Positions 3,052-20,558 of a DNA stretch of 64,000 nt are shown here, piece after piece. The notes below the pieces were generated by a model that was given only the letters and a program-made list of their open reading frames with translations, ran no database searches and had not been told where the DNA came from. Each line of letters begins with the position of its first letter. The first letter of the stretch is position 1. Source of the stretch: Phycisphaerae bacterium (lineage in GTDB: Bacteria > Planctomycetota > Phycisphaerae > Phycisphaerales > UBA1924); the NCBI GenBank assembly GCA_030432255.1, contig JAUIHS010000025.1:1-64000 (forward strand), given 5' to 3'. Made by a program: the position numbers and the translations under genes.

Positions 3052-3154
3052 GCATCCGAGTTTATCGGACACGGCTGCGGTTTCCTAGACTCTGTTCTCA
3101 CTTGTGCCCGCTACGTCGAGGGAGAACCGGCGAGCGCACTCCACCACTGAGAAA

Positions 3155-3870: not shown

Positions 3871-3913
3871 TGGTGTTCCTTTCGTGGAGTGTGTGCCCGT
3901 CGCCGGGCGAGAA

Positions 3914-4240
3914 TCAGTGCTGTGATGGATCGAAGCGGGCGCCGCAGGACTGGCAGGTGATGTGCTCGTCGTCGTCCCACACGAGCTGGTCGTGATCCGA
4001 CTCTCGGCATCGCGGGCAGGCGATGGCAGGTGATTCAGATGGTGTGCCGGCGCCGGCGCGGCCTGCGGCGTACGCCTGCTCCAGCGCCTCGCGGACGCAC
4101 CAGACGGCGACGTCGTGAAAGTCGAGGCTGTCGGATGAGCGGGTCTCCAGCGTGGGGATGCCCAGGACGCGCTTCGCGATGGACTCGAGTTCGGGAAGCG
4201 CCGGCGGGCCGGGGTGCCCCATGGCAGATTGTTCAGGCAT
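3914..4240 (-). CDS. DUF6900-like protein with C-terminal zinc ribbon, phage-associated
   Basis: A 108-residue protein. Residues ~15-60 (LESIAKRVLGIPTLETR, then LDFHDVAVWCVREALEQAY) resemble DUF6900, a small domain of phage and plasmid proteins. The C-terminus is a likely zinc ribbon with CPRC and CQSC pairs separated by about 18 residues. The start at 4240 has an excellent AGGAGG seven bases upstream; the longer open frame beyond it is not protein-like. It is the first gene of a two-gene minus-strand unit with the HARE-HTH gene, and the 12 bases TCCACGAAAGGA precede both start codons. The family has no established function. The DUF6900 assignment is from memory of the motif. Confidence 0.7.
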   Translation of the reverse strand: MPEQSAMGHPGPPALPELESIAKRVLGIPTLETRSSDSLDFHDVAVWCVREALEQAYAAGRAGAGTPSESPAIACPRCRESDHDQLVWDDDEHITCQSCGARFDPSQH

Positions 4241-4284
4241 GGCAATGCCTCCTTTCGTGGACACACTGAGCCATGAATGTGCGC

Positions 4285-4299
4285 TATCATCAAGTGATA
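4285..4299. promoter_or_regulatory. Inverted repeat in the divergent DUF6900/HNH intergenic region
   Basis: TATCA-N5-TGATA lies in a locally AT-rich 76-base gap between divergently transcribed phage-type genes, with a related TGATAG immediately after. This could be an operator for a phage-type regulator. No clear -35/-10 pair could be assigned. Confidence 0.3.
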
Positions 4300-4316: not shown

Positions 4317-4664
4317 ATGTTTCTCGGGAGGCCCCCGTTCATGCCACAACGGCTCCGAACACACCATGCCCGCACGCGCACAGTGACGCCGCAGGTCGAC
4401 CGCTCCAGCCCGAGCCGTCGCGGCTACGACCGTGCATGGCAGCGGCTCCGTCGCTGGTTCCTGATGCGTCATCCTTTGTGCGAGCACTGCGAACGGAAAG
4501 GACGCGCGACGCCCGCTACCGAGGTGGATCATGTCGTGCCGATTCGCGCCGGTGGGCCTCGACTTGACCAAGCGAACCTGCAGGCATTGTGCAAGTCGTG
4601 TCACAGCCGCAAGACCGTGCGCGACCAGCGCGTCACTGGGCGAGCAAGGGGGGAGGGGGGGTGA
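4317..4664 (+). CDS. Phage-type HNH endonuclease
   Basis: A 115-residue basic protein with the HNH fold: CEHC near residue 60, EVDHVVPIRAGG with the catalytic His, then NLQALCKSCHSRKT with the second Cys pair and final His. Small HNH proteins encoded directly upstream of the terminase are required for DNA packaging and cleavage with some phage terminases (for example HK97 gp74), which fits this position. The start could be 4317 or the second ATG at 4341 (MPQRLRTHH). It is followed after 84 bases by the terminase small subunit. The Gly/Arg-rich tail is probably disordered. Confidence 0.85.
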   Translation: MFLGRPPFMPQRLRTHHARTRTVTPQVDRSSPSRRGYDRAWQRLRRWFLMRHPLCEHCERKGRATPATEVDHVVPIRAGGPRLDQANLQALCKSCHSRKTVRDQRVTGRARGEGG

Positions 4665-4748: not shown

Positions 4749-5228
4749 ATGGGACGCCGCGGCCCGGCACCGACGCCGACTGACATCCTGAATCTGCGAG
4801 GCAGTTGGCGGGCCAACGTCAATGCCAATGAGCCGCAGCCGGAGAAGGGGAGCCCCGAGCGTCCCGAGTGGCTGAGCGAGTATGCCGCCGCGGCGTGGGA
4901 TCAGCTCGCCCCGGAGCTCGAGGCCATGGGCGTGCTCACCATCATCGACGGTCACGCCCTTGCCGTGCTCTGCCAGACCTGGGGCCGGTGGCGGAAGGCC
5001 GACGAGTTCCTGCAGAAGCACGGGGAGACCTACACCGTCCGCGACGACATGGGCAGGGTGCGGCTCGTCAAGCGATTCCCCCAGGTCGCGATCGCCAGCG
5101 ACTGCGCCCGCGCACTCAACCGCCTCTTCCAGGAGTTCGGCCTGACCCCTTCCGCCCGCTCGAGGATCACCGTCCATGGCAGCCAAGACGACAGCTTCGA
5201 CAAGCGCAGCTACCTCAAACTGGGATGA
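4749..5228 (+). CDS. Phage terminase small subunit, P27 family
   Basis: A 159-residue protein starting MGRRGPAPTPTDILNLRG, the hallmark N-terminus of P27-family small terminases. A helical body follows (AAAAWDQLAPELEAMGVLT...). Small terminases recognise the packaging site and deliver DNA to the large subunit. The start at 4749 is favoured by GGAGG five bases upstream; an in-frame start at 4725 would add eight residues. The 3' end overlaps the large-subunit gene by 53 bases in another frame, a normal phage arrangement. The gene appears complete, and its neighbours HNH and TerL confirm the identification. Confidence 0.9.
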   Translation: MGRRGPAPTPTDILNLRGSWRANVNANEPQPEKGSPERPEWLSEYAAAAWDQLAPELEAMGVLTIIDGHALAVLCQTWGRWRKADEFLQKHGETYTVRDDMGRVRLVKRFPQVAIASDCARALNRLFQEFGLTPSARSRITVHGSQDDSFDKRSYLKLG

Positions 5229-6828
5229 CGAACTGCGGCTCATCCCGGGCTATGACCCCTTCGATGGTTCCGGCGCCTCCACCTTCGACGAGGAGGCCGC
5301 AGCTCGGGCCATCGGCTTCTTCGCCGACTGCCTGACGCACGTGAAGGGCGAGTTGGCCGGGCGGGCGTTCCAGTTGGAGCCGTGGCAACGGTCGATCGTC
5401 GCCAACATCTTCGGCTGGAAGCGTCTGGATGGAACGCGGCGATATCGCGAAGCACTCATCTACGTGCCGCGGAAGAACGGCAAGTCGTGCCTGGCCGCGG
5501 GCATCTGCCTCTACCTGCTCTTCTGCGACGGGGAGCGTGGCGCGGAGATCTACTCCGCCGCGGCCGAGCGGGACCAGGCCGCGCTCGTGTTCGATGTCGC
5601 CAAGCACATGGTGCTCTCCGAACCCGTGCTCGCCGGCGCCTGCAAGGTGTTCACCAAGGCGATCGCCATCGAAGAAGTCGGCAGCACGTACAAGGCCATC
5701 AGCGCCGACGCGAACACCAAGCACGGGTACAACACGCATGGCGTGGTCATCGACGAACTGCACGCCCAGCGGAACCGCGACCTGGTCGATGTGCTGCTGA
5801 CTTCAACCGGCTCGCGCCGTCAGCCGCTGGTGATCCACATCACCACCGCCGACTACGACCGTCCATCGGTCTGCAACGACAAGCACGACTACGCGATCAA
5901 GGTGCGCGACGGGATCATCGAAGACCCCAGCTTCCTGCCGGTCATCTACGAGGCGACTCGGGAGGACAACTGGACATCCCCCGAGACGTGGCAGAAGTGC
6001 AACCCGAATCTCGGCGTCAGCATCTCGGCGGAGTACATGGCTCGCGAGTGCCAGCGAGCCCAGGACTCGCCGTCGTACGAGAACACCTTCAAGCGCTTGC
6101 ACCTGAACATCCGCACCGAACAGGACGTCCGCTGGCTCTCCATGGCCAAGTGGGATGCGTGCGGCGGCCCCATCAACCCCGATGCGCTCGTCGGCCAGCG
6201 CTGCTGGGCCGGGCTTGACCTCGGCTCCACCGCCGACCTGACCGCGCTGTGCCTGCTCTTCCCTGACACGGATGAAGACGTCTACCGTGCGCTGTGGTGG
6301 TTCTGGGCGCCGGCCGACAACGCATACCGCCGGGAGCGACGAGATCGCGTGCCCTACGTCACGTGGTCGCGCGAAGGCCTGGTCGAACTGACCGACGGTG
6401 ATGAGACTGACTACCGCCACATCCGCCAGCGGATCGGCGAGATTGCAGAGCGCTACGCGATCGTGGACATGGGCGTCGACCGACTCTTCCAGGGCGCGGA
6501 ACTGTGTCAGAACCTCGCGGACGACGGCATCGACGTCGTGCCCTTCGGCCAGGGCTTCTACTCGATGGCCGCCCCGTCAGCAGAGTTCGAACGCCGCGTG
6601 AACCGTGGTGAGATCCTCCATGGCGACAACCCGGTGATGCGCTGGATGGCGTCCAACGCGACGGTCCGCATGGATCCTGCGGGCAACATCAAGCCGGACA
6701 AGCAACGGAGTACTGAGAAGATCGACGGGGTGGTGGCCGCGATCATGGCGCTCGGGCGTGCGATGGCGCGGGAAGCGGGTGGTGGGAAGAGGTCGGTGTA
6801 TGAGGATCGGGGGGTGCGGGTGGTGTAG
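5176..6828 (+). CDS. Phage terminase large subunit
   Basis: A 550-residue packaging ATPase/nuclease. The ATPase part shows a Walker A-like VPRKNGKS near residue 98 and a Walker B VVIDE followed by LHAQ near 192. The C-terminal RNase H-like nuclease shows GLDLGSTADLTAL near 350 with conserved Asp residues, and MGVDR near 432. Length and motifs match a full Terminase_1-type large subunit. It translocates DNA into procapsids and cuts it. No portal, protease or capsid gene follows; the next gene, 144 bases on, is a DNA methyltransferase. The packaging module is therefore orphaned, either a prophage remnant or an element relying on another phage. Confidence 0.92.
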   Translation: MAAKTTASTSAATSNWDDELRLIPGYDPFDGSGASTFDEEAAARAIGFFADCLTHVKGELAGRAFQLEPWQRSIVANIFGWKRLDGTRRYREALIYVPRKNGKSCLAAGICLYLLFCDGERGAEIYSAAAERDQAALVFDVAKHMVLSEPVLAGACKVFTKAIAIEEVGSTYKAISADANTKHGYNTHGVVIDELHAQRNRDLVDVLLTSTGSRRQPLVIHITTADYDRPSVCNDKHDYAIKVRDGIIEDPSFLPVIYEATREDNWTSPETWQKCNPNLGVSISAEYMARECQRAQDSPSYENTFKRLHLNIRTEQDVRWLSMAKWDACGGPINPDALVGQRCWAGLDLGSTADLTALCLLFPDTDEDVYRALWWFWAPADNAYRRERRDRVPYVTWSREGLVELTDGDETDYRHIRQRIGEIAERYAIVDMGVDRLFQGAELCQNLADDGIDVVPFGQGFYSMAAPSAEFERRVNRGEILHGDNPVMRWMASNATVRMDPAGNIKPDKQRSTEKIDGVVAAIMALGRAMAREAGGGKRSVYEDRGVRVV

Positions 6829-6972: not shown

Positions 6973-8586
6973 ATGCCACGATCTGAACCAACGATTCCCA
7001 TCATCGATCTCTTCGCCGGTCCCGGTGGACTCGGCGAGGGGTTCACTGCATTCGCTCCGGACGATGGTCCTCGTTTTCAGATCAACCTGTCCGTTGAGTA
7101 CGAGCCGAACGCACACGCGACACTCCAACTGAGGTCGTTCGTCCGTCAGTTCGGCGGTCGTGATCGTTGGCCGGATACGTACTTCGACTTTCTGGAGTCC
7201 GGCGATCTCATGCATTTGCAGAAACAGCACCCATTGGAGTGGGCTGCGGCGACCGAGGAGGCGATCCAGGCTGAACTCGGTGTTGCAGAGCATGATCAGA
7301 TCGTCGAGCGGAGGGTCGCCGCAATCCGCCGCGCGAACAAGGGACGCGACATTGTCCTGATCGGTGGTCCACCGTGTCAGGCGTATTCGCTCATCGGGCG
7401 GGCCCGAAACCGCGGAATCGAAGCCTATGAACCGGAGCACGACCGACGGCACTACCTCTACGAGGAGTATCTTGCGATCATCCGTGAATCATGGCCGGCG
7501 ATCTTCGTGATGGAGAACGTCAAGGGGATCCTGTCGTCGCGTGTGAGCGGAGAGAAGATGATCGGTCGGATCATGGGTGACCTGTCGGAACCGGATCGAA
7601 ACGGCCGAATGTCGCTGCGGAAGCGTTATCAGCTCTGCCCGGTTGTTCTCCCTGAGACAGACCGCTCCCCATCAGAGGAACAATACAGGCCAAGCGACTT
7701 CATCGTTCGTGCAGAGGATCATGGTGTTCCGCAAGCTCGTCACAGGGTCTTCATCATGGGTGTTCGTGAGGACGTCGTCCGGAAGGCCGGGGGCCTGCCC
7801 GGAATTGAAGGATGTCTCATATCGAGGCGTGGCGATCACAATGAGACGACCGTTCACAAGGCCATACATGACCTGCCTGACCTGCGAAGCGGTCTCTCAA
7901 AAGGTGACAGTCTGGAGGCATGGCGGGCGGTTCTCGCGTCGGCTCAGACCAAGGACTTCTCAGATGCGATCAGCATTGCGAGCGGCCCTGAGGTAGCGAG
8001 GGTCTGTGAGGTCTCAGTTGATCGCGCGATCAGACGCCGATTCGAGCGCGGAGGTCGGTATCTTGAAAATCGCCAGCGTTCGTTGCTGCCGTCCGACCTC
8101 GCATCATGGCTGCACAATGATCGACTCCCGGGAGTCTGCAACCATGAGACCCGCGGCCACATCCCTGCTGATCTCCATCGCTATCTGTTCGCCGCCGCGT
8201 ACGCGAAGGTCTGTGGCATCTCGCCGACTCTCGCTGACTTCCCGGATGAACTGCTTCCGGAGCACAGGAATGTGAAGCGGGCGATCCGGGGCGGGTCCCT
8301 CTTCTCGGACCGCTTCCGAGTGCAGGTGCGCGATCGAGTCTCGTCCACGGTGACTTCACACATCTCGAAGGATGGCCACTACTATATTCACTACGACCCC
8401 GTGCAGTGTCGAAGTCTGACTGTGCGTGAGGCGGCGCGTCTGCAGACCTTTCCCGATGACTACTGTTTCATGGGCGGTCGCACCGCGCAGTACGTACAGG
8501 TTGGAAATGCCGTGCCTCCCTGGCTCGCTCGGCAGATCGCCGAGGTCGTGCATTCGATCATGAGAAAGGCGGGCCGCTTCGGGTGA
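6973..8586 (+). CDS. DNA (cytosine-5) methyltransferase, DISARM-associated (DrmMII-like)
   Basis: A 537-residue C5 methyltransferase. Motif I is IDLFAGPGGLGEG near residue 12 (SAM binding), motif IV is GGPPCQAYS near 130 with the catalytic Cys, motif VI is MENVKG near 180, motif VIII is QARHRVFI near 254, and motifs IX-X include SLTVREAARLQTFP and GNAVPP near 512. Long insertions after motifs I and VIII probably hold the target-recognition region. It methylates cytosine in a specific site; the site cannot be told from sequence. A GTGA overlap couples it to the Vsr gene, and both converge on the DISARM-like operon. Class 2 DISARM includes such a 5mC methylase (DrmMII), so it probably marks self DNA for that system. 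Confidence 0.9.
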   Translation: MPRSEPTIPIIDLFAGPGGLGEGFTAFAPDDGPRFQINLSVEYEPNAHATLQLRSFVRQFGGRDRWPDTYFDFLESGDLMHLQKQHPLEWAAATEEAIQAELGVAEHDQIVERRVAAIRRANKGRDIVLIGGPPCQAYSLIGRARNRGIEAYEPEHDRRHYLYEEYLAIIRESWPAIFVMENVKGILSSRVSGEKMIGRIMGDLSEPDRNGRMSLRKRYQLCPVVLPETDRSPSEEQYRPSDFIVRAEDHGVPQARHRVFIMGVREDVVRKAGGLPGIEGCLISRRGDHNETTVHKAIHDLPDLRSGLSKGDSLEAWRAVLASAQTKDFSDAISIASGPEVARVCEVSVDRAIRRRFERGGRYLENRQRSLLPSDLASWLHNDRLPGVCNHETRGHIPADLHRYLFAAAYAKVCGISPTLADFPDELLPEHRNVKRAIRGGSLFSDRFRVQVRDRVSSTVTSHISKDGHYYIHYDPVQCRSLTVREAARLQTFPDDYCFMGGRTAQYVQVGNAVPPWLARQIAEVVHSIMRKAGRFG

Positions 8587-9002
8587 ATGATCCGCCACCC
8601 ACTCCGGAACGAAGCCGAAACATGTCGCGCATTCGCGGCTCAGATACGAAGCCGGAGATGTGTGTACGGCGGCTCGTCTGGAAGATGGGTTTCAGGTACA
8701 GACTTTACCGCCGCGACCTGCCCGGGACGCCAGATCTCGTCTTCCCCTCCAGACAGAAGGTCATCTTCGTGCATGGGTGCTACTGGCACCGCCACCGATG
8801 CGTCTACGGTCGTCCGATCCCGAAGACGCGCACTGAATTCTGGCAGGCCAAGTTCGATGCGAACGTGAAGCGTGACCGACGTGTGGTCAGGCAGTTGAGG
8901 CGAGCCGGGTGGGATGTCCTGATAGTCTGGGAGTGCTGGGTGAAGAAATGGACCCCCGACCGTATCGAGTCCCGCATCAGTCAGTTCCTCCAGGAGCGTT
9001 AG
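8583..9002 (+). CDS. vsr: Very short patch repair (Vsr) endonuclease
   Basis: A 139-residue protein with the full Vsr pattern: RSRNMSRIRGSDTKPE at the N-terminus, YRRDLPGTPDLVF containing the catalytic Asp, VIFVHGCYWHRH with zinc and active-site residues, and FWQAKFDANVKRD. Vsr nicks DNA 5' of T:G mismatches that arise when 5-methylcytosine deaminates. It normally accompanies a C5 methylase, as here: it starts with GTG four bases inside the methylase gene, so the two are translationally coupled. Its stop lies only eight bases from the end of the convergent drmB gene. The length is typical and all key residues appear present. Confidence 0.93.
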   Translation: MNDPPPTPERSRNMSRIRGSDTKPEMCVRRLVWKMGFRYRLYRRDLPGTPDLVFPSRQKVIFVHGCYWHRHRCVYGRPIPKTRTEFWQAKFDANVKRDRRVVRQLRRAGWDVLIVWECWVKKWTPDRIESRISQFLQER

Positions 9003-9010
9003 ATGATTAG

Positions 9011-10861
9011 CTACACGGAGGTCACAACTCTCTCAAGCCAAGGGCTGAAGAACCCCGCGTCACCATCACTTGGCGATCCAATCAGCATGACACGGTCAAG
9101 CAGCCTGTTTCCTTCTTCACAGCTTGTTTCGGGAAGAAGACAGCAGGCATGGCACGCGGCACAATTCAGACCATCGGTGCCCTGCCCCATGCTTTCCACA
9201 CATACCGGATCAGAAGCGCACCAGCGAGCGCTGAGAAGTGCGTTCGCGACGAGTCCCTCGAGAGTACCCGGCCGACCCTGTCGGGTCAGTCCGCCGAGTG
9301 TGCCCTCAGCATCGCCTGCGGCTGTGTAGATGAGGATGCCAAGCATCTTCGTAGGATCCTCAGGCGTCCCACAGTAAATGCGTTCGCGCACCGATGCTGC
9401 ACCATAGCCACAGCTGAAGCTCAGTTCGCGAATGAGCACGTGCGCAAGAGCATGCAGAAGGAAAAACGCAGGGGCTAAATCTCGCGGTGCCGTACCCCGT
9501 TCGTTCGCGACTCGACTGGCGTTGTCAGTCATTTTCTGTGATCGAGATACGACCGCTGGATGCTTGGCCCACTCGCTCACAAGGTCACGCCTCAGCGTGA
9601 AGAACAGTCCCTCACCATAGACTCTGACCGCCGGCAGCCACCGCTTGGGTCTTATCGCAAGTTTCTTCATGCCGTCCGTGAGGCTTTCGCTCGCACTTGG
9701 CGGACTGATCCTTGAGAATCCGGTGAGCGCACGTGTTTCCGCGAGCTTCTCAACGGTGATCACTCGATCGAAGTAGTCGGAGACCGGCGCACCGTATTCG
9801 GAGGCACTACGAGATCGCAGGACCAATTCGGAGTCCTCTCTTGACTCACCATGAGATAGGACCTCGTACTCCGCATATCGAAATTCCGTCTCGCTCTGCT
9901 CAGGGCTGCTCAGACTTGCGCCGCTGAGTTTGAGTTTGACGGCTTCATAGAGTCGGACCGAATCAAGGTTGAATTGGTCAGCGATGGTCTCCACGCGGAT
10001 CTGATCGGGATTGCCGTCAGAGTTCACGCCGCTAGACAACGCTCCCCATACTCTCTTCCGATCAATGATCTTCCTGATGGCATCGCTGAACGGCGGGATC
10101 AGAATGGAACTCGACGTCTGGGCAAAGTATGTATTCGAGCCACCCCTCTGAACAAGTCGCGGATTCTCACCGCAGTTCTTCACATTCGCATTCGGACCAA
10201 GCCACGGACGACATCCACCGCACCTGTGCCCGGGTACGCCATCGGGACTCGATGCACCTACCAGAGATCGCTTTGCCCCGCACGTCACACACTCAACAAG
10301 CACACCTTCGAGGCCTGCCCTTCCAGTCGTCTTCAGTCTCAATTGAGGGCCATCGCACAGTGGTGCAGACCCGAGGTCTGTCCCTCGCTTTGCATGCGCC
10401 CAGTGCGGCCATGGAAAGTCCTCGATGTGTCCCCCCTCGCAAGCCACTACAAATCGCAAGGGGACCATTCTCCATCGTCTTCGTTCAGTGAGTGATGCGC
10501 ATGGCGGCTTCCCTCCGAGCGTCTTGATCGGCATGTCACACTTCGGTGGGCCAGGACTATTCCATGGAACGGGCTTGACTCCCTTGCAACGAGGGCACTG
10601 GTGCCATCTTGGAAACCGAACGAGAGGAAGAAACTCGCCAGGGACTCCACGATCCGGAGGTTGAGGCGGAAGCTGGAATCCATCAACGCCCAACCGACTT
10701 GCGAGGCGATCATCATTGGGCACAAGCGAAGACTCATCCGAGAACTTCCATGCATCCAAACCCGCCACCATCAGTGACTCACTCGGGAAGTCGACGATCG
10801 CGCCGACACCGAACGGCGAAATCGCCTGCGTGCGCCGGATTGGACGGTGATACTTAGCCAT
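9011..10861 (-). CDS. drmB: DISARM protein DrmB (DUF1998)
   Basis: A 616-residue protein starting MAKYHRPIRRTQAISPFGVGA, a typical DrmB-like N-terminus. It carries Cys pairs (CPRC near 85, CVTC and CGGC near 195-220) that may bind zinc. The C-terminal DUF1998 region (~455-590) contains HALAHVLIRELSFSCGYG and the Cys cluster CAACHACCLLPETSC. DrmB works with the DrmA helicase in the DISARM anti-phage system, where the DrmA-DrmB complex engages incoming phage DNA. It overlaps drmA by eight bases; the open frame upstream of 10861 is just drmA in another frame. It is the last gene of the minus-strand operon. Confidence 0.87.
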   Translation of the reverse strand: MAKYHRPIRRTQAISPFGVGAIVDFPSESLMVAGLDAWKFSDESSLVPNDDRLASRLGVDGFQLPPQPPDRGVPGEFLPLVRFPRWHQCPRCKGVKPVPWNSPGPPKCDMPIKTLGGKPPCASLTERRRWRMVPLRFVVACEGGHIEDFPWPHWAHAKRGTDLGSAPLCDGPQLRLKTTGRAGLEGVLVECVTCGAKRSLVGASSPDGVPGHRCGGCRPWLGPNANVKNCGENPRLVQRGGSNTYFAQTSSSILIPPFSDAIRKIIDRKRVWGALSSGVNSDGNPDQIRVETIADQFNLDSVRLYEAVKLKLSGASLSSPEQSETEFRYAEYEVLSHGESREDSELVLRSRSASEYGAPVSDYFDRVITVEKLAETRALTGFSRISPPSASESLTDGMKKLAIRPKRWLPAVRVYGEGLFFTLRRDLVSEWAKHPAVVSRSQKMTDNASRVANERGTAPRDLAPAFFLLHALAHVLIRELSFSCGYGAASVRERIYCGTPEDPTKMLGILIYTAAGDAEGTLGGLTRQGRPGTLEGLVANALLSARWCASDPVCVESMGQGTDGLNCAACHACCLLPETSCEEGNRLLDRVMLIGSPSDGDAGFFSPWLERVVTSV

Positions 10862-13800
10862 CGTTCGTCTCCTCCAAAGGCGAGTGCTCGTCTGCAGCGT
10901 TCTCATCCGCACCGCCCAGCGTCTGCACAACCTGACCCTGACACTCAACATCCACGTTGCGCAGTGACGTGGGAGTAGGCCACATCGCACTCGCATTCTC
11001 GGGCAATACCGCTCCCATCGGATAAAGAAGTGTCACTTGCTCATCTGAGGGTGCCCCATAGGGCAATCCCCATGCCTCCGGACCGTGATCCTGCCAGGAT
11101 GTTGCCAGCTTGGAGAGTCGGTCCCGAAGTTCCTGACTATGCTCTCCGTCAATTGAGTCACATCGGTCAATCAGCCAAGACTCGAGACCCTGCAGGGCCG
11201 GGGTATTAGGTGCAAAATCCTCCGGCCGATCCAACTCGTCCAAGTGGCGAGCAGCAATGGTCAGTAGCGCATGAAGCGCTCGGTCCATCGCCGGAAGTGA
11301 AAATGGTGTGACACTGGTTGGCTCGACAAAACGATAGAAGGACTCGTGGTAGGCTCGAAAATGCTCGTAATGAGAACGATCCCTCGGCTTGCCTGGGGCA
11401 TAGAGAGTCACCACCAACCCGGGAGCCTCTTTGGAACGTCCGACACGACTTGAGGCCTGAATGTACTCCGCGGTGGTCTTCGGCTGGCCAGCGACCAGCA
11501 TGAGTCCGAGACGCGGAACATCCACGCCGACTGAGATCATATTTGTGGCGAGAAGAACATCAATCGCCGGATTGGCTTCAGTATGCCTCATTTCGAGACG
11601 CCGCAGAGTCTCGGGAATCTCGTCGGCTCGAACTCGCCCGGTGAGTTCGACCGGACGGCCAAGCCGCCGCTGCTCATCAGAAGGCAGCTTCAGGCGCCTT
11701 GCAATGACCCGCAGGTACTCGGGGATGTCCGCTTCGACCAGCGTGCTCGCATGCCCCAGTTCCCGAATACTGTTGAAGTACCAGACAAGCGTCCAGTAGG
11801 GGTCTCGGTCGGACTCCCCCGAGACATCGGCCGTCCTGATCGCCTGGAGAATGGCAGCGGCGGCTCTCAAAGAAGCGGTAATCTGTGAGGGTGCGGCAGA
11901 TCCAAAGACACCGACATACTTGCGGGCGGGTTCGTCTGGCGCCTCGAAGGCGAAGTAGTTGTCTGACACATCAATACCGGGAGGTGGAAAGACCTGGGTC
12001 TCTCTGTTGTAGAGGCTACGACATTGCTGCTCGGCGCGCCGGATCGTTGCCGTTGAAGCCACAATCTTCGGCATCCGGGAGCCGCGAGCACACATAAGGT
12101 CGATAATCGACTCGTAAAGGCCGACCATTGATCCCAGTGGACCCGAAATCAGATGCAACTCATCCTGAATGATGAGATCCGGGGCGGCCCGCTTCTTTGA
12201 TCCGAGCCCGAGGATCGAGCCGGTGATTGGTTTCCAAGCGAGCATCGCAAACTTGTCGACGGTCGCAACGATCATTGTCGGTGGATTGTCGTAGATGTCT
12301 TCATCAACGACGCTGACCGGAAGGGCACCATCCCTGCGCGAGAACGGACACCTTCTCTCGGGACACACGAACCTCATCGAATCCGACGCAGATCGTTGCC
12401 GATACCCCGGATTGCGAGAGTCGTCCAAGGCTGTGCCGCACCACGGGCACCCAATGAGCTGATAGGGGTTCTCGCCCTTCTCGCGCAACCATTGGGTCAT
12501 TCTCGTCTTCGAGTCTGATCGGGTGTTTGGCGATGAACTGCCTCCCAGCCAGAGACCGATTGAGATGGGAGATTCTCCCAGACTTGATGAATCTCCACGT
12601 CTGAGCATTTCGCAAGCACAGATCATGGATGCCGCCCGTTGGAACTGCTGAGACGTCAGAAGTCGCAGTGTGTACCTTGTCAGAACGCAGCATCCGTCGG
12701 ACGTCGGATCACACAATCTTCTGTAGAGAATGGAGCAGGCGGCGAGACCCAGATAGGCTTCGGTCTTTCCACCACCCGTCGGAAACCAGATCAGGTCGAC
12801 CACGTTTCTTGGATCGGACTGGCCGCGAGATCCATCTGAGACGAGCGCAGGAAGATTCATCAGGATGAAGGCCAGTTGGAAGCACCGCCAGCGTCCCCGC
12901 CGCGGGCCATCCGGCTCGTAGCTTGTCGGAAGGTCCTTCCACGAATCACTTGCGCCGCGTCGATCTCGAGCGTAGTGGACCTGCTGCATCAGCATCACTT
13001 GATTCGCCCACATGAACGCCTTCATGAGATTCGGGTCTTCCTCCAAACACTTGATGCCACTCTCAATCCTCTTGCAACACGCAGCGCACCCAGCGAGGTG
13101 GTCCGTTCCGACCTGTTGGAGCGACAAGTCAAGCACAGCCAAAGCCCCCTGTTGAGTGGCGATCCAATTGTTGTAGGCATCGGGGACCGCCTGGAGCGAC
13201 CTGATGATCGCCGATGCATCGCACGCACCTCCTGCACCGGACAGGTGATACATTCGGTAGGGCACCGTACCATCCGCTCGCGGCAGTACCGGCGGCACTT
13301 CAACACTCGGAACGACTGCCGTCCTTACGAGTGTCGCCTTGTCATCCGTGTTCCCCTGCCATTCGGCTGCGCACCCGTGACCAACAGCAAACGCTCTCCG
13401 GTTTCTGTAGAGCAACTCCAGAGAACGTTGCTCGCTGTCCACAAGATCGTGTGAGTGAATGAGTTGATACTCGCGGAAGACCGCGGACTGATCCGGTGCC
13501 TCGACGGCGAATCCAACCTGGAAAAAACAGTCAGCGACCTTGGCCTTCTGCCTCTGACTCGTGCATCGGTTGGCGTTGTACACCGCCGCCGTCACGAGAA
13601 AGGACCCATCCGACCTGACTCGACTGAGGACAAAGAGCCTCAGTCCTGGACAGAGCTCGATGTTCCGTCGAACACTTGTCCTGTCTCCATCCGGCCGAAC
13701 GTCCACTGACTGCTTCGGTATGGTGATGCACTGTCGTTTCCATGTCTTCTGCTTCCCCGCAATCTCGACATAGGCGGCGGCTTCGAATGAGAACTGGAGG

Positions 13801-14177
13801 ATGCCATCAGATGGAGCCGCAAGAAAAGAAAGGCCTATCGCCGCAGGTGCAGATGCGTTGGCAAGATGAACCGGCTCGTCGTACGCACCGTCTACCCCCT
13901 CCGGTGAAGAGCGACGCACTCTCCGCTCCCCTGCTTCGCGTTCTCTCTCCTCCTCGGAAGGTGGAACATCCAGAGTGTCGTTGTGTTCCTCGTTCCCGGC
14001 TTCTTCGTCCGCTTCGGCATCTTCATTCTCATCGATTAGATTTCCGCCCGGAAACAGAATGCCAGCCGAGTATCGACGCGTCGGAGACTCCTCAAGCACC
14101 TCCTCATCTTCTCCGGGACCGATGATCTCCCACTCGAGGAAACGGATCAGCTCGTCTCGCAGTTCCAACTCAGCCAC
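10854..14177 (-). CDS. drmA: DISARM helicase DrmA
   Basis: A helicase of about 1,107 residues. The N-terminus (LRDELIRFLEWEIIGPGEDEE) and the RRYSAGILFPGG block are typical of DrmA. Walker A is WFPTGGGKTEAYLG near residue 464, the DEXH-like box is IIQDELHLISGP near 670, and the C-terminal helicase part has MISVGVDVPRLGLML and QASSRVGRSKEAPG near 885-915. It supplies the ATP-driven DNA translocase of DISARM. The GTG at 14177 has AGGAG seven bases upstream and overlaps the preceding stop by eight bases; ATG at 14195 is the alternative, but GGAGG there abuts the start codon. An acidic, low-complexity Glu/Asp segment lies around residues 50-80. It is followed by drmB with an eight-base overlap. 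Confidence 0.88.
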   Translation of the reverse strand: MAELELRDELIRFLEWEIIGPGEDEEVLEESPTRRYSAGILFPGGNLIDENEDAEADEEAGNEEHNDTLDVPPSEEEREREAGERRVRRSSPEGVDGAYDEPVHLANASAPAAIGLSFLAAPSDGILQFSFEAAAYVEIAGKQKTWKRQCITIPKQSVDVRPDGDRTSVRRNIELCPGLRLFVLSRVRSDGSFLVTAAVYNANRCTSQRQKAKVADCFFQVGFAVEAPDQSAVFREYQLIHSHDLVDSEQRSLELLYRNRRAFAVGHGCAAEWQGNTDDKATLVRTAVVPSVEVPPVLPRADGTVPYRMYHLSGAGGACDASAIIRSLQAVPDAYNNWIATQQGALAVLDLSLQQVGTDHLAGCAACCKRIESGIKCLEEDPNLMKAFMWANQVMLMQQVHYARDRRGASDSWKDLPTSYEPDGPRRGRWRCFQLAFILMNLPALVSDGSRGQSDPRNVVDLIWFPTGGGKTEAYLGLAACSILYRRLCDPTSDGCCVLTRYTLRLLTSQQFQRAASMICACEMLRRGDSSSLGESPISIGLWLGGSSSPNTRSDSKTRMTQWLREKGENPYQLIGCPWCGTALDDSRNPGYRQRSASDSMRFVCPERRCPFSRRDGALPVSVVDEDIYDNPPTMIVATVDKFAMLAWKPITGSILGLGSKKRAAPDLIIQDELHLISGPLGSMVGLYESIIDLMCARGSRMPKIVASTATIRRAEQQCRSLYNRETQVFPPPGIDVSDNYFAFEAPDEPARKYVGVFGSAAPSQITASLRAAAAILQAIRTADVSGESDRDPYWTLVWYFNSIRELGHASTLVEADIPEYLRVIARRLKLPSDEQRRLGRPVELTGRVRADEIPETLRRLEMRHTEANPAIDVLLATNMISVGVDVPRLGLMLVAGQPKTTAEYIQASSRVGRSKEAPGLVVTLYAPGKPRDRSHYEHFRAYHESFYRFVEPTSVTPFSLPAMDRALHALLTIAARHLDELDRPEDFAPNTPALQGLESWLIDRCDSIDGEHSQELRDRLSKLATSWQDHGPEAWGLPYGAPSDEQVTLLYPMGAVLPENASAMWPTPTSLRNVDVECQGQVVQTLGGADENAADEHSPLEETNDG

Positions 14178-15924
14178 GGAGATTCTCCTCTTCATCCTCC
14201 AGCCACTCTCGAACCAGCATGCGATACTCGGGCTCAAGTTCAGTTGGCAGCAAAACAAACAGCTGGATGCGGGCCCTGGTCATTCCGACATAGGCAATCG
14301 CACGGTCACGATCCGATTCAAGGGCATCAATGTCGGTCAAAATGATCACATCATTCTCCAGACCCTTGAAGGCGGACACGGTCGCATACGTGATCCCGCT
14401 TGGCTGCAATTGGGCATTGTTCTCCGCAAGCAGAGTCAGCGGTCGCGACCCTGAGTATGAGTTGAGCCAAGTGGGGCTCTTGAACGGTGATAGAACAGTC
14501 ACAGTCGCAGGGTCAATTCGATCCCGAGCGATCAGTCGTTCAAGAATGCTCTCCACAATCTCGGCTTGCTCATCCGACGTGTCATACCATTCGTAGATCA
14601 CGGAGCTTCCATCAACTCGTGACTCTGCGCGCACCGAGGGGCGCGCGACCATGTAGCTTTCCTCAGCAATCTCTCGCGTATTCCTGACATTGAGATAGAG
14701 GGCCTGCCGACACGCGATCCTCTGAAGCGAAGCGGCAACTGATTCATCATATCGACCATAGACTGCCGCTTGATTGTTTGAGTCGAGGAAGATCCGCCAG
14801 GTGCCCCCACTCAGCCCACCGACCAGCACCGCGTCGATGACATCAAGCACCCACTGCATGAGCAGGTCCTGAGCTTCATCAACAATTATCACATCAAATG
14901 CATCTTCGCTACGCTCGATCGCGGCTAGGGGTGCATGTTCTGGAATCAACTTGTCCCACAGGTCTGAAGCGGAGGCGCGGTTCTCGCTTTTCGAGAATTC
15001 CGTCCGCTGGTCAGACTGCTCGATCAGTCCCCGCGCAAAGCTGAAGATCGTCTTCACCGTGACTCGATCGTCCTTTACCTGAGATCTCAGATGATCGGCG
15101 AGGAATCTATTGAAACAGAGCATCAGTACCCGCTGGCCATGCCATGCCGCCCGCCGCGCCGCCTCTCTCGCAAGCACGGTCTTGCCAGTGCCCGCGCTTC
15201 CCGTTACCAAGAGCCGCGGCTCATCTCTGAGCATGTCCAGAATCGCATATTGAGCAGGCTCCAATGCCTGCATTCGCTCAAGTGTGCTTCTTGCAGTCGC
15301 GGAGAGTGGGACCACGGCGTCGAAATCACCGCGCAGGAATTCGACGAGTTCTTCCGCATCTGACTTGCGAGGCTCGAACTTCTTGCGTGTCTGCTGTTCG
15401 CGATTGAAGGTCGTCAACTGCCCGATGCACCAGATCGCTCCCTTCGGCATGCAGTCACAATCGATCACGCTCTCACTTGACTCAGTGCCTTCATGATCGT
15501 CGACGTCGCTGCGAAGTGCGCAGTCGGGAGTGACGACGCCGTATCCCATGAGGAGATTGGCCAAGCGGGATCCTCGATCAAAGCGATCCCGAACCCGCCT
15601 TTCCAGCGAAAACATGGCATTCCGGACCTGCTCGAATGGACTTCGCCGCGTCGAGTTGACTTGGTCAAATCTGTTGACATGACGCCACTCTCCATTGCCG
15701 CGATTGACTCGCCCGCCCTTGACTTCGAGCACAAGTACGGCGTGCCGCGTCACCAGCAGGAAGTCGATCTCACCAGCTCGTTGCGTTTCGTGCTTCGCGA
15801 GTCCGAGCGAGTGGAGACAAACCCAATCGTCGGTGCCGGGGGCCGACTTCAGCCATTGAAACACGCGCCGTTCCGCGCTGCTTCGGACGTCCGGGTGAAT
15901 CACGTCCGGAATCATTCTGGTCAT
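14170..15924 (-). CDS. NERD nuclease-superfamily I helicase fusion in the DISARM-like operon
   Basis: A 584-residue protein. Residues ~15-130 form a NERD (nuclease-related) domain, with RAGEIDFLLVTRHAVLVLEVKGG carrying the D...ExK nuclease signature. The rest is a UvrD/RecD-like SF1 helicase: Walker A TGSAGTGKTVLA near 237, IIVDEAQD near 345, TYATVSAFKGLE near 520 and AYVGMTRAR near 545. It should unwind DNA and may cleave it. It starts with an ATGA overlap after the DrmE-like gene and overlaps drmA, so it belongs to the operon. Canonical DISARM instead carries DrmC, a phospholipase-D-type nuclease, which is absent here. This protein may take that place; that substitution is inference. Confidence 0.85.
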   Translation of the reverse strand: MTRMIPDVIHPDVRSSAERRVFQWLKSAPGTDDWVCLHSLGLAKHETQRAGEIDFLLVTRHAVLVLEVKGGRVNRGNGEWRHVNRFDQVNSTRRSPFEQVRNAMFSLERRVRDRFDRGSRLANLLMGYGVVTPDCALRSDVDDHEGTESSESVIDCDCMPKGAIWCIGQLTTFNREQQTRKKFEPRKSDAEELVEFLRGDFDAVVPLSATARSTLERMQALEPAQYAILDMLRDEPRLLVTGSAGTGKTVLAREAARRAAWHGQRVLMLCFNRFLADHLRSQVKDDRVTVKTIFSFARGLIEQSDQRTEFSKSENRASASDLWDKLIPEHAPLAAIERSEDAFDVIIVDEAQDLLMQWVLDVIDAVLVGGLSGGTWRIFLDSNNQAAVYGRYDESVAASLQRIACRQALYLNVRNTREIAEESYMVARPSVRAESRVDGSSVIYEWYDTSDEQAEIVESILERLIARDRIDPATVTVLSPFKSPTWLNSYSGSRPLTLLAENNAQLQPSGITYATVSAFKGLENDVIILTDIDALESDRDRAIAYVGMTRARIQLFVLLPTELEPEYRMLVREWLEDEEENLRG

Positions 15925-18900
15925 CTCAATTCACCTTCAAGCAGTCGGCCCAGACAGGAGTGGGGAACGAGGGTCCTCTCACGGTCAGTCGCAACGACAC
16001 GCACGATCCTCAGAGAATCTCCCAGCTCAATCGCACTGGCTGGATCCGGGTCGTCGGTCTGTTTGCGAAGCAGCTCTCCTATGACACGCTGCGCAAGCAT
16101 GCGAGAGGCTCGCATGTGGGCAGATCGGATCTGAGACACCGCGTCAATGCACTCTTCGATCCGTGCCTCAAGACTCACATCCGCCGTTGCAGTCGCGATT
16201 GCTCTGATGTCGCGATATGACCTCGGTGCTATGATGTCGTGGCGATGGATCCAAGCGTTGAGTGTGCCCAGCTGTCTTGCACAGCCCGCCTCGCGAAGGC
16301 GCTGAATCAGCGCTGATTCATCGCCGCCTCCACGCAGAAATGACCGGATCGCCTCTTTCCAAAGGCTCGCCGACTCCCTGAGATTTTCGGCACGAGGAAG
16401 GACTTCATCCGCCTGGACACGAATTGCATCAGGGTCGGAGCCAAGATGGAACAAGAGGTAGTCGCCGACGCGAAGCTCGTCCGCTGATACGACTTCAAGC
16501 TCCGATTCGTCATCCGCCAAACCTGCCAGAAGATGGTTTACGCGGCGAAGGCGTGAGTAGTCAGTCACCCAGACGCAGCTGTCGTCCTCGAACAGGATGA
16601 GTTGGGCTTCAACGCGGTCGTGTTCATCAGATCCGGAGACCTGAGCCTCCGCCCTTTTCCGTGCATACATCCTGACGAGTCGCTCGAAGTTCTCAACGGA
16701 TTCCACGGTTTCCTCTTCCGGTGGCATGTCCACAGGTTCTGCCGGAACGGAAACAGAGCGATGCTTCCCCACGATTGATCGCGAGAATCTCCGTCTTGTC
16801 GCCCTTCTCAGAAAACGCCTATGCTCATCGCTTTCGAAGCCGTAAGCCAAGACCGTGACCCTGGTCGCGATCAGCGGGTTGAGAAGCCGGTTCATGATCT
16901 CTGAGCGATACCATCCCGGCACGATGACATGATCCACAGAACCGGGATCCAGCCCCCGCCAGTCGGCCACAGACAGATTGAGTATGCGGTCCGATATCGC
17001 CGCCGCACTCTTGGCATCAGCCGCTGCCAACCTACTTGGCATGACCAGAGTGGCAGGCTCTCCCTCAAGGAGTTCCTCAAGTTTGGCAAACTTCGGATTG
17101 TCGGTTGTCAATCGCGAAACGAGCGCATCTATCCGATCGGCGGCGCGCGCGGCAGATGCAACTGCATCTGCCGCCAGATAGACGGACTTGGTCTGTCTGA
17201 GTGTCGAACTGTGGAGGCTCACATACTCACGCAGGCCGACCGATGAAGACATAAGAAACGGCCATTGCGATAGCGTGCGCAGTAGTCTCCATGCAGCGTT
17301 CAACAGAGAATCCATCTCGTCTGTTGGATTCGCACCCGCGACGCGCGCGAGTTCCTTGGTCGCCAGCCACGCATGGTCAACTTCCGAGCAGTCAATCCGC
17401 TCTGCCTTCACTGTTCCCCTTACTGCGCACAGCACAGAACTCTCGTACTCCTGGAGAATTCCAGCGTCACTCCTACTCCGACGCCAGATGAGCTCTCTGA
17501 GTTCGTCGGAACCCCAGCCAACGACCTCGCTTCCTTGGTTTGTTGCGAAGTCGCACGACTCTATGTCTGCATCAGCCAGGATGGCCACAACCGACGCGTC
17601 TCGATTCGCAAGATGCACGAGGTCGGTCACCTTGTCACGACTCAGCGATCCAACATCGACGATGACCGAAGCCTCCTTCTCTTGGTCTGCCAACCAATCA
17701 GCCGCCTCAAGAGGATCAGAAACGACGAGAATCGAGGGCAATCCCAGGTTCTCCCATCTGTTCGACCACCACTTCAGACTTCCATCGGCAGCCAGATTCG
17801 CAATCGGCAAGAGATCCTTGAGTGGCACTCCGTACAACGAAACGCGCTCGGACCATGCTTTTACATGCGCGGGACGACTGATCAAGACCGTTGTCTTCTC
17901 CGCCACATGAGATGCAATCGGCAGGCGCGAATTCAGAAGTCGATCGATGGGTCGAATCGCAGCGTTGCTTCTCTGAATGGCTTCAGGCTGTGGGCCACGA
18001 ACTTTGCGTTGATTGGAGGCGGGGCTCATTCGCGTGAGATTCTCGGGTATGGCCGGAAACCACACTGTGGCCCGCGGTCTCCCGTTGGGAAACACCTTGT
18101 GGCAGAGTCCGAACTCTTCTCTTCCATCGCGAGTCCGGAGCCCTCGGTAGAGATAGACCGCCTTTCTGTCACCATCCAGATGGACCTTCGATTCAACGCT
18201 GAGCCATCCGTCATCTGAATACTCCCGGTCACAAAGGAATCCAATGGCGGCGAGCATCGCCAACGTCCCAGGTGCGAGTCCGGTTCGAGGCAGAGAAAGC
18301 CACCGTAGGCCGTGTCCAGCAGTCTCGGTCTGCTGAACTATCGAACAGTTGAGCAGCATGAACTCCGAGAGTTCATGATCCCCCCCGATGTCAGACAGGA
18401 CTGTTCGGAGAAGAAACGGCCACTGTCCTACCACTTCATCAAGAGCGGCGATCATGAGTCCACTGGACGCGCCGCATCGCCGATTGGCCTCAAACACGGC
18501 CACACGATCATCAAGGTAGCCGACCAATCCAAGGTCATCCGGGATCAGATCTTCGGTTTCGATAAGGTATGACAGTCCTGCCCGGGCCCACTTCTGCTGC
18601 TCGGAATCAGCCGATGAGATCAACCCGACCAAGTGGTCTATTGATCTCACAAATCGTCCGAAGAAACCCGCGGAGGCAATCGGTTTCAGTCCGGTCACCA
18701 CCTGGCGCGATTGTTCAATCAAGGTCGCATCATCAAAAGGAGGGCGTTCAGCGAAGTTGTTGAGCATCTCGATGACGTTGCGATGATGTTCTTCGTTGAG
18801 ATGCGGCCCGGAGTAGGTTGAAATCTCTCCGCTACGTTCCTCGATCTCATGGATCGCGAGCGACATGACGTAGTAGTCATCCTCAAGTCCGTCCACATCC

Positions 18901-19178
18901 CGATTGTCGGGAACAAGATCGTCCTGCTTCAAAAAATACAAGAGCGCACCGCGCGAGATCTCCTTGATAGCACGCTCATCAGAAAACAGTAACTCGTACG
19001 CGAGCGCGAGGGCGTACCTGGTAAAACAAAACTCAAAGCCCGTTTTTCCAACATGTTCGTAGAGCCTTGTCGAAACTTCTCGGACAATCTCCTCGTCTGA
19101 GCGGCTCGGCGCGCTTCGACATGCTTGCTCACGAATCGCGAGGATCCGCTCACGGTCAGCATATGAAAGCGACTGCAC
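15921..19178 (-). CDS. Large DrmE-like protein with two DUF1232-like segments, first gene of the DISARM-like operon
   Basis: A 1,085-residue protein starting with GTG (GGGAGG eight bases upstream). Near residues 55-115 and 195-235 are two segments resembling DUF1232: ALLYFLKQDDLVPD, and GLSYLIETEDLIPDDLGLVGYLDD. The middle and C-terminal parts show alternating hydrophobic strands typical of a Rossmann or helicase-like fold (TVLISRPAHVKAWSERV, SILVVSDPLEAADWL, DHVIVPGWYRSEIMNRLL), but no intact Walker A. It has the position of drmE, the first gene of class 2 DISARM upstream of drmA-drmB, and a plausible degenerate-helicase architecture. The assignment to DrmE rests mainly on synteny. It ends in an ATGA overlap with the NERD helicase. 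Confidence 0.6.
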   Translation of the reverse strand: MQSLSYADRERILAIREQACRSAPSRSDEEIVREVSTRLYEHVGKTGFEFCFTRYALALAYELLFSDERAIKEISRGALLYFLKQDDLVPDNRDVDGLEDDYYVMSLAIHEIEERSGEISTYSGPHLNEEHHRNVIEMLNNFAERPPFDDATLIEQSRQVVTGLKPIASAGFFGRFVRSIDHLVGLISSADSEQQKWARAGLSYLIETEDLIPDDLGLVGYLDDRVAVFEANRRCGASSGLMIAALDEVVGQWPFLLRTVLSDIGGDHELSEFMLLNCSIVQQTETAGHGLRWLSLPRTGLAPGTLAMLAAIGFLCDREYSDDGWLSVESKVHLDGDRKAVYLYRGLRTRDGREEFGLCHKVFPNGRPRATVWFPAIPENLTRMSPASNQRKVRGPQPEAIQRSNAAIRPIDRLLNSRLPIASHVAEKTTVLISRPAHVKAWSERVSLYGVPLKDLLPIANLAADGSLKWWSNRWENLGLPSILVVSDPLEAADWLADQEKEASVIVDVGSLSRDKVTDLVHLANRDASVVAILADADIESCDFATNQGSEVVGWGSDELRELIWRRSRSDAGILQEYESSVLCAVRGTVKAERIDCSEVDHAWLATKELARVAGANPTDEMDSLLNAAWRLLRTLSQWPFLMSSSVGLREYVSLHSSTLRQTKSVYLAADAVASAARAADRIDALVSRLTTDNPKFAKLEELLEGEPATLVMPSRLAAADAKSAAAISDRILNLSVADWRGLDPGSVDHVIVPGWYRSEIMNRLLNPLIATRVTVLAYGFESDEHRRFLRRATRRRFSRSIVGKHRSVSVPAEPVDMPPEEETVESVENFERLVRMYARKRAEAQVSGSDEHDRVEAQLILFEDDSCVWVTDYSRLRRVNHLLAGLADDESELEVVSADELRVGDYLLFHLGSDPDAIRVQADEVLPRAENLRESASLWKEAIRSFLRGGGDESALIQRLREAGCARQLGTLNAWIHRHDIIAPRSYRDIRAIATATADVSLEARIEECIDAVSQIRSAHMRASRMLAQRVIGELLRKQTDDPDPASAIELGDSLRIVRVVATDRERTLVPHSCLGRLLEGELR

Positions 19179-19592
19179 GGCAAGTCCCTCCCGGGCCTAC
19201 CAATTTCGAGCAGCAAACGCACCCGACTAGTGCACTCGCCAACGAAGACTTAGGCTCCACAGATGTTCCAGACCAGAGTAGCAGAAGCTGACCCAAGCAA
19301 ACAGGGCGGGTCGGCGTCTAAGTTGTCATCGTGTCCGGCGGAGCCCAAGCGGTGCTTGCTGAAGCCAGTTCACGGGTGAGGAGGGAGACATCCAGAACTC
19401 CCGGCGTTGGATTGTGCATACGGTGAAACCCGGATCCCGTCAGAACATTCGCCCATCAAACCGTTTACAGTCGCCGCCGCCAAGTGCCCGCACTCGGATC
19501 TACGTCCGGCCCGGGCAGCTCAAAAACGTCGCCCAAGCATCTGCGCACTCGCTGGAACAGCTGCACCGCATCGTGCATACTCTGTAGGTTCA
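19179..19592. other. Divergent intergenic region between the DISARM-like operon and the PD-(D/E)XK gene
   Basis: These 414 bases carry no convincing gene and must contain the promoters for both flanking transcripts. I could not identify a -35/-10 pair with confidence in either direction. A frame open from 19407 into the next gene has no protein-like character before 19593. Confidence 0.5.
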
Positions 19593-20558
19593 ATGACCAC
19601 CAACATCTTCTCAACCTACTCCCAAGGCGAGAACCGCGTCACGGCATCCGTCCTCGCGGTCCTCGGCGCCCTCTCCCTGCACCGCATCGAACGCCTCATC
19701 GGCGCCCTCCTCGAGCAGGCCGAGTTCGAACTTGTCCGCTTCCAGAATCAGCCCTCGCGCGGAGCCCCCGGGGTTCCCGATGCGGAGATCTCGTCGAGCT
19801 GCCGCATCCTCGTCGAGACCAAGACGGTCCCCAATGCCGTCCGCCAAGACCAGCTTGAGCGGCACCTCCAGCGGCTCGATGCTTCCACCGAGCGATTTCA
19901 GGCCCTTCTTGTGCTCACGCCCGACGACGATGTCCCCGCGGCCGTCACCGACCTTGCCCACGAGAACCTTGTCTGGGCGTCGTTTGCCCGCCTCGATCAG
20001 TCCATCGACGAGCTCCTCGACGACCCGCACGAAGTGATCTCCGAGCGAGAGGCGTTTCTCCTCCGCGAGCTCCAGGCCATGCTTGCCGGCGAGAACCTGT
20101 TGGGAAATCCCGTCGATGTCGTGATCGTCGCGGCCCACCACGCGTGGCCAGAATACCTGCGGCACAGCGCGTACATCTGCCAGGCCAACCGTCCATTCCA
20201 ACAGGTCCAGCGGCTGGGGTTCTACTCGCATGGCGTGGTCAACCCGCTCATTCCGCGGATCCTGGCATCCTTCGACGAAGTCGAACTGCAACGCGGCGGA
20301 GCAACAGGCGACGAACGAGTCGATGCATTGGTGGACACACTCCTCGCAGATCCGAATTCTGCCCGAAGCCCGGGCGAAACCTACAAGATCATCTTCCTGA
20401 GCGGGCCGGACGATCCTGAGACCCTCAAACTCGACAAGCCCATCCCGAATGATCTGAAGGCACGCACGGGCAAGACCTGGGCGTTCACGATGAGTCAGCG
20501 GTACGTGATGGAAGAGGCACTTCTTGGAGCAAAGGCGACGAGTGAACTGGTGATGTAG
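19593..20558 (+). CDS. Uncharacterised protein with PD-(D/E)XK nuclease-like motif
   Basis: A 321-residue protein starting MTTNIFSTYSQGENRVTASV. Residues ~45-75 contain GVPDAEISSSCRILVETKT, that is Asp followed by a strand with ExK, the core of the PD-(D/E)XK nuclease fold. A conserved-looking GENRVTASVLAVLGAL helix precedes it. The C-terminal half (VVIVAAHHAWPEYLRHS, then VQRLGFYSH) looks like a separate alpha/beta domain of unknown function. The start at 19593 is chosen because sequence upstream in the same frame is not protein-like. It stands directly beside the DISARM-like operon, divergently oriented, which suggests a defence or mobile-element role. Function not established. Confidence 0.7.
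   Translation: MTTNIFSTYSQGENRVTASVLAVLGALSLHRIERLIGALLEQAEFELVRFQNQPSRGAPGVPDAEISSSCRILVETKTVPNAVRQDQLERHLQRLDASTERFQALLVLTPDDDVPAAVTDLAHENLVWASFARLDQSIDELLDDPHEVISEREAFLLRELQAMLAGENLLGNPVDVVIVAAHHAWPEYLRHSAYICQANRPFQQVQRLGFYSHGVVNPLIPRILASFDEVELQRGGATGDERVDALVDTLLADPNSARSPGETYKIIFLSGPDDPETLKLDKPIPNDLKARTGKTWAFTMSQRYVMEEALLGAKATSELVM

Follow-up and report, generated by a model that had tools for sequence, protein, structure and literature searches.

Results

Gene content and organization of the locus

The window analyzed here is a stretch of 64,000 nt from a Phycisphaerae bacterium (UBA1924; assembly GCA_030432255.1, contig JAUIHS010000025.1, positions 1-64,000, forward strand), and its subject is a six-gene island that resembles the DISARM family of defense systems. 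Transcribed from the minus strand, in the order DrmE, NERD+SF1 helicase, DrmA, and DrmB, are four genes whose junctions all overlap, by 4 bp (DrmE/NERD-helicase), 26 bp (NERD-helicase/DrmA), and 8 bp (DrmA/DrmB). On the plus strand, a C5-cytosine methyltransferase gene and a vsr gene, which overlap by 4 bp, converge on drmB, with 8 bp between the stops of vsr and drmB. Both the overlapping operon and the convergent pair eight bases from drmB had been described in an earlier reading of this DNA (hereafter, the original prediction) and were reproduced with our corrected coordinates. The features are as follows.

15921..19178, minus strand: DrmE-family protein, 1085 amino acids, operon gene 1, GTG start (NF038316, Pfam DrmE_C)
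14170..15924, minus strand: fusion of a NERD (PD-(D/E)xK) nuclease domain and an SF1 helicase, 584 amino acids (Pfam NERD, SF1 helicase families)
10854..14195, minus strand: DrmA, SF2 (YprA-family) helicase, 1113 amino acids (NF038325, 7s9v match, motifs)
9011..10861, minus strand: DrmB, DUF1998/MZB protein, 616 amino acids (NF038324, Pfam MZB)
6973..8586, plus strand: C5-cytosine DNA methyltransferase, DrmMII-like, 537 amino acids (TIGR00675, PADLOC DrmMII, motifs)
8583..9002, plus strand: Vsr T:G mismatch endonuclease, 139 amino acids (TIGR00632)

The starts of DrmA and DrmB in the list of open reading frames were judged to lie too far upstream and were corrected to 14195 and to the ATG at 10861, respectively; both corrected starts are preceded by a ribosome-binding-site-like sequence of the GGAGG type (GGAGG itself upstream of 14195). 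The island has a G+C content of 57-59%; that of its surroundings is about 62-65%. All six genes have open frames at these positions, and a reading of the locus as a dead remnant was rejected on the strength of these frames and the intact motifs described below.

Identity of the operon proteins

DrmA scored 961.8 bits against NCBIfam NF038325 (cut-off 950), matched the solved structure of Serratia DrmA (PDB 7s9v) with E=1.2e-151, and contains the motifs FPTGGGKT, QDELH, and QASSRVGR, which were read directly. DrmB, present in a single copy in the source genome, scored 454 against NF038324 (cut-off 240) and matched Pfam MZB at 3.9e-07. Adjacent but separate genes for a DrmA helicase and a DUF1998 DrmB protein form the core of the DISARM family, and this core is present here as overlapping genes. 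The original prediction had named failure of the DrmA and DrmB hidden Markov models as a result that would count against it; both models match above their NCBIfam cut-offs.

The 1,085-residue protein, which had been proposed to be DrmE-like, proved to be so: it matched the DrmE_fam model (NF038316) with E=5.2e-47 and a score of 160.7 (cut-off 80), and Pfam DrmE_C with 28.0 (cut-off 27). It matched neither the canonical DISARM_DrmE equivalog (NF038323) nor the PADLOC models, and is a subfamily match only. Homologues were identified at four of our survey loci (L020, L210, L013, and L144), with split forms at four others (L146, L050, L035, and L009). A search of 295 genomes from the phylum to which L020 belongs found a DrmE above the cut-off in the genome of L020 alone, and tblastn with two queries found none on plasmids. 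The equivalog model had no match in 346 Actinomycetota genomes and none in the controls either, and no conclusion is drawn from this search. The AlphaFold model of DrmE, built from 8 alignment rows, had a predicted local distance difference test (pLDDT) score of 51; its matches in the PDB reached E=0.02 at best, and it was not used.

The 584-residue protein between DrmE and DrmA has an N-terminal NERD domain (Pfam, 1.4e-12) with PD-(D/E)xK residues and C-terminal SF1 helicase domains, the architecture that defines the NERD+SF1 class. The active-site residues E18, D54, E67, K69, and Q99, together with the Walker A K248, are conserved in 61-62 of the 62 relatives linked to DISARM, and Pfam NERD was present in all 21 relatives scanned. 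Conservation of this kind is the pattern expected of an active enzyme, from which nuclease activity may be predicted. The AlphaFold model of the protein (pLDDT 84.6) is closest to PDB structures of SF1 helicases, namely Schlafen, Upf1, UvrD, and the Dna2 nuclease-helicase. The NERD-helicase of the window has its closest relative (39% identity) at L019 (6908-11476), where that relative comes after a DrmD-like helicase in a metagenome-assembled genome of Myxococcota.

The methyltransferase matched TIGR00675 and PADLOC DrmMII (1.1e-81) and contains the directly read motifs GGPPCQ, ENVKG, QARHR, and VGNAVPP. Vsr matched TIGR00632 at 9.8e-42.

DrmC was not found and does not co-occur with the NERD-helicase in surveys drawn by DrmB

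The locus had been predicted to lack DrmC, the typical DISARM nuclease (PMC12458937), and we found none: with a profile built from 27 DrmC sequences, the window gave no match at E<=1, and a DrmC query had no match in the 4.5-Mb genome, a 94% complete draft in which a gene could lie in a gap. The same query detected the DrmC of a same-family genome (G002), which served as the positive control.

Since our first set of loci was gathered via the NERD protein and is biased, further surveys were drawn by DrmB alone in Planctomycetota (392 genomes, 38 loci mapped) and Actinomycetota (346 genomes, 24 loci mapped). DrmC was found at 26 of the 38 Planctomycetota loci and the NERD-helicase at 4; the corresponding numbers for the 24 Actinomycetota loci were 9 and 6. 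Over all 62 loci, 35 had DrmC and 10 had the NERD-helicase, and in neither phylum did the two occur together.

The same division appears in trees of the core proteins, which were computed by FastTree and whose deep branching order is not to be relied on. In a tree of concatenated DrmA and DrmB from 111 systems, one 44-row clade (support 98) takes in all 34 DrmC-linked rows and none of the 59 rows that have NERD or SF1 helicases only. The window is placed in a 14-row clade (support 99) composed mostly of DrmE(-like)-NERD systems. A tree of DrmB only gave the same split between DrmC and NERD/SF1 systems.

The arrangement recurs in at least 10 phyla

A search seeded with the NERD-helicase returned 9 plasmids, 80 genome loci, and a few viral contigs; the last held six NERD-helicase loci, two of them with DrmA/DrmB, and a search of phages gave one weak match in an unannotated record. 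Including the later surveys, the NERD-helicase stands beside DrmA/DrmB at about 60 loci on plasmids and chromosomes, from Planctomycetota, Pseudomonadota, Actinomycetota, Myxococcota, Deinococcota, Acidobacteriota, Verrucomicrobiota, Bacteroidota, Chlorobiota, and Chloroflexota. The layouts include NERD-DrmA-DrmB (with or without a HelD/UvrD-like helicase), UvrD-DrmA-DrmB-NERD, DrmA-DrmB-SF1-unknown-NERD, and that of the window, DrmE(-like)-NERD-DrmA-DrmB. The original prediction had suggested looking for this last order in other genomes, and it recurs in Planctomycetota, Verrucomicrobiota, and Actinomycetota: whole or nearly so at L020, L013, and L210, with DrmE in two genes at L146, L050, L035, and L009, and also at L213 and L218. 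The actinobacterial L210 reproduces the layout of the window in full, including the convergent methyltransferase, which is 43% identical.

Several further arrangements were observed. Two Planctomycetota loci are broken copies of the window's system: at L144 (genome G248), an internal stop interrupts drmE, the C-terminal part of which is rearranged, and at L143 (G217) drmA is shortened; Vsr and the methyltransferase remain open in both. In a mainly proteobacterial layout, a plain SF1 helicase and the NERD-helicase are separated by a conserved, uncharacterized protein of about 540 amino acids (L030, 8385-10010; relatives at L034, L025, L029, L021, L044, L058, L042, L040, and L043). A protein of about 1550-1590 amino acids precedes NERD-DrmA-DrmB in an actinobacterial subclade (L032, 492-5207; L037, 5337-9998; L088, 5229-9959; L077; and L087). 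At L051, L061, L078, and L086, NERD or other SF1 helicases adjoin DrmA-like helicases of 1700-2050 amino acids that lie far from DISARM in the tree, which suggests that pairing with NERD/SF1 helicases extends past the split DrmA/DrmB.

Flanking genes

Directly upstream of the methyltransferase, on the plus strand, are an HNH endonuclease (4317-4664) and a phage terminase large subunit (TerL; 5176-6828), near which no other phage structural gene was seen; the two are possibly a prophage remnant or an integration scar. A phage origin of the island was considered and is not supported, as no DrmAB relative has a TerL neighbor and this TerL is missing from 20 same-family genomes. Farther out, on the minus strand, lie a 363-amino-acid protein (3202-4293) with a C-terminal, restriction-endonuclease-associated HARE-HTH domain, a possible further defense gene, and a tandem pair of paralogous FG-GAP repeat proteins that carry dockerin domains (359-1741 and 1723-3072). 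On the other side, just upstream of drmE, a plus-strand frame (19407-20558) contains a PD-(D/E)xK-like stretch, VPDAEI...ILVETKT, and has no Pfam, PHROG, or PADLOC match.

Comparison with known systems

The window shares DrmA, DrmB, a DrmE-family protein, and a C5 methyltransferase with class 2 (type II) DISARM, which comprises DrmE, DrmA, DrmB, DrmC, and DrmMII; it differs in lacking DrmC, in carrying the NERD-SF1 helicase within the operon, in its DrmE being a match to DrmE_fam only, and in the added Vsr. As the PADLOC definition of type II requires DrmC (PMC9252829), the locus is by definition not type II. With class 1 (type I; DrmD, DrmMI, DrmA, DrmB, and DrmC) it has DrmA and DrmB in common, but both lie outside the DrmC-linked clade; neither DrmD nor DrmMI was found in the window, and DrmE, which type I lacks, is present. 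TALON likewise combines a helicase of the YprA family with a NERD nuclease; in that extremely rare system, however, the YprA protein is undivided and ARMADA-like and is accompanied by TPR-CSD and TBP genes (PMC12458937), whereas the window has split, DISARM-type DrmA and DrmB and no TPR-CSD or TBP genes among its operon members. RTasNERD-Hel of PADLOC has the same NERD+SF1 architecture with a reverse transcriptase, not DrmAB, as partner, and Nhi and GajB resemble the window protein in their SF1 helicase and have no DrmAB partner.

A survey of the YprA family reported many uncharacterized DISARM-like classes (PMC12458937), and an earlier paper noted a cassette resembling DISARM next to McrBC and methyltransferases, deferring it to a later publication (PMC11090510); two of our loci, L008 and L188, fit the latter description. 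The main texts of these two papers describe no NERD-SF1 helicase, DrmC loss, or DrmE for DISARM-like classes. We found no paper that combines DrmAB with NERD; supplements, where an earlier mention is possible, lay outside this search. The locus looks like an intact, recurrent variant of the DISARM family, belonging to a class that appears widespread and so far undescribed.

Discussion

We interpret the island as a restriction-like defense system of the DISARM family, of a class without DrmC in which DrmAB works with the NERD-SF1 nuclease-helicase encoded in its operon, and assign this reading a probability of about 0.72. The original prediction that the NERD-helicase stands in place of DrmC is supported, more strongly than the sequence by itself allowed, by the exclusion in the 62 loci, which were drawn irrespective of partner genes, and by the separation of the clades; the nuclease function that it also ascribed to the protein is suggested by the catalytic residues. 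In the mechanism we propose as the most economical, the C5 methyltransferase would label host DNA as self, and DrmA-DrmB, an SF2 helicase with a DUF1998 clamp, would load on unmethylated invader DNA with single-stranded ends and translocate. The loading and methylation-sensing steps are taken over by analogy from Serratia DISARM, in which DrmAB binds single-stranded DNA with 5' overhangs and methylation lowers its ATPase (PMC9142583). The NERD-SF1 protein, helicase and PD-(D/E)xK nuclease in one, would then act on the DNA so opened, degrading unmethylated DNA and taking over the job presumed for DrmC, the separate phospholipase D (PLD) nuclease of canonical DISARM. DrmE would be an operon-specific accessory, perhaps a sensor or scaffold. 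Vsr is known from Dcm-Vsr pairs to protect the methylated motif from deamination; here it would repair T:G mismatches arising from deaminated methylated cytosines, as maintenance and not attack.

Several observations weigh against this interpretation. Of 98 same-family NERD-helicases, 32 occur without DrmA/DrmB, which makes the protein a mobile part, and its best PADLOC match is the reverse transcriptase-associated NERD helicase. Two loci, both from the biased set (L049 and L056), have DrmC and a nearby NERD-helicase. Some loci in the DrmC-less clades have just a plain SF1 helicase, or neither, so the NERD domain is not indispensable, and the clade split means that the exclusion represents few independent events. 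Canonical class 2 DISARM (DrmE equivalog with DrmC) is absent from the tree, which therefore does not give its placement.

Rather than an attacking nuclease that works with DrmAB, the NERD-SF1 protein could be a second effector in the same operon, sufficient in itself, or a backup acting by abortive infection, as proposed for the NERD of PglW in Type-2 BREX, which has been interpreted as a suicidal backup (PMC12839542). The occurrence of its family in other contexts and the match to reverse transcriptase-associated helicases fit such a role; the position between DrmE and DrmA with overlapping frames, and its retention with DrmAB across phyla and absence from the DrmC-bearing loci of the unbiased surveys, speak against it, and we consider it doubtful. 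Far less probable is an incomplete class 2 DISARM that lost DrmC and received the NERD-helicase gene by chance. DISARM can indeed dispense with DrmC, which its operons often lack (PMC9142583), and canonical class 1 loci without it exist (L193, L166, and L171), but the layout of the window is found again in many phyla, and NERD/SF1 systems without DrmC fill whole clades rather than scattered tips, which largely refutes this explanation.

The methyltransferase and Vsr, for their part, may be an independent orphan methylation module outside the DISARM system, with self-marking supplied from elsewhere or unneeded, a possibility that we rate as unlikely, though not negligible. The pair lies on the strand opposite the operon, and about half of the NERD/SF1 loci have no methyltransferase within 8 kb. 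Such pairs also adjoin DrmC-type DISARM (L190 and L153) and McrBC-like genes (L008 and L188), and are therefore a module used by several systems; Vsr is present, as originally predicted, but is not special to this variant. Against an orphan module, 23 of 51 NERD/SF1 systems, compared with 3 of 28 DrmC systems, have a related methyltransferase no more than 8 kb away (Fisher p=0.002, ignoring kinship); for Vsr these numbers are 16 of 51 and 3 of 28 (p=0.05). Moreover, the methyltransferase has the same convergent position in L210 and is in line with the operon in L050 and L146, Vsr-methyltransferase pairs are retained in L143 and L144 of the window's own phylum even with a damaged drmA or drmE, and a C5 methylase belongs to class 2 DISARM (PMC9252829).

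Beyond this locus, we lean somewhat toward regarding DrmAB with NERD-SF1 as a widespread, unnamed DISARM-family class with several sublineages, of which the window would represent the DrmE-bearing subtype. The destructive step of DISARM is unsettled: in Serratia, DrmC does not co-purify with DrmAB, and the nuclease step has been called a 'mystery' (PMC9142583). If our interpretation is true, it would explain how DISARM-type systems destroy DNA where DrmC is absent, and a DrmC-free DrmA/DrmB lineage with a nuclease-helicase in its operon makes the question testable by point mutation. For genome scanners, definitions of DISARM that demand DrmC would miss the locus described here, which widens the scope of DISARM calls.

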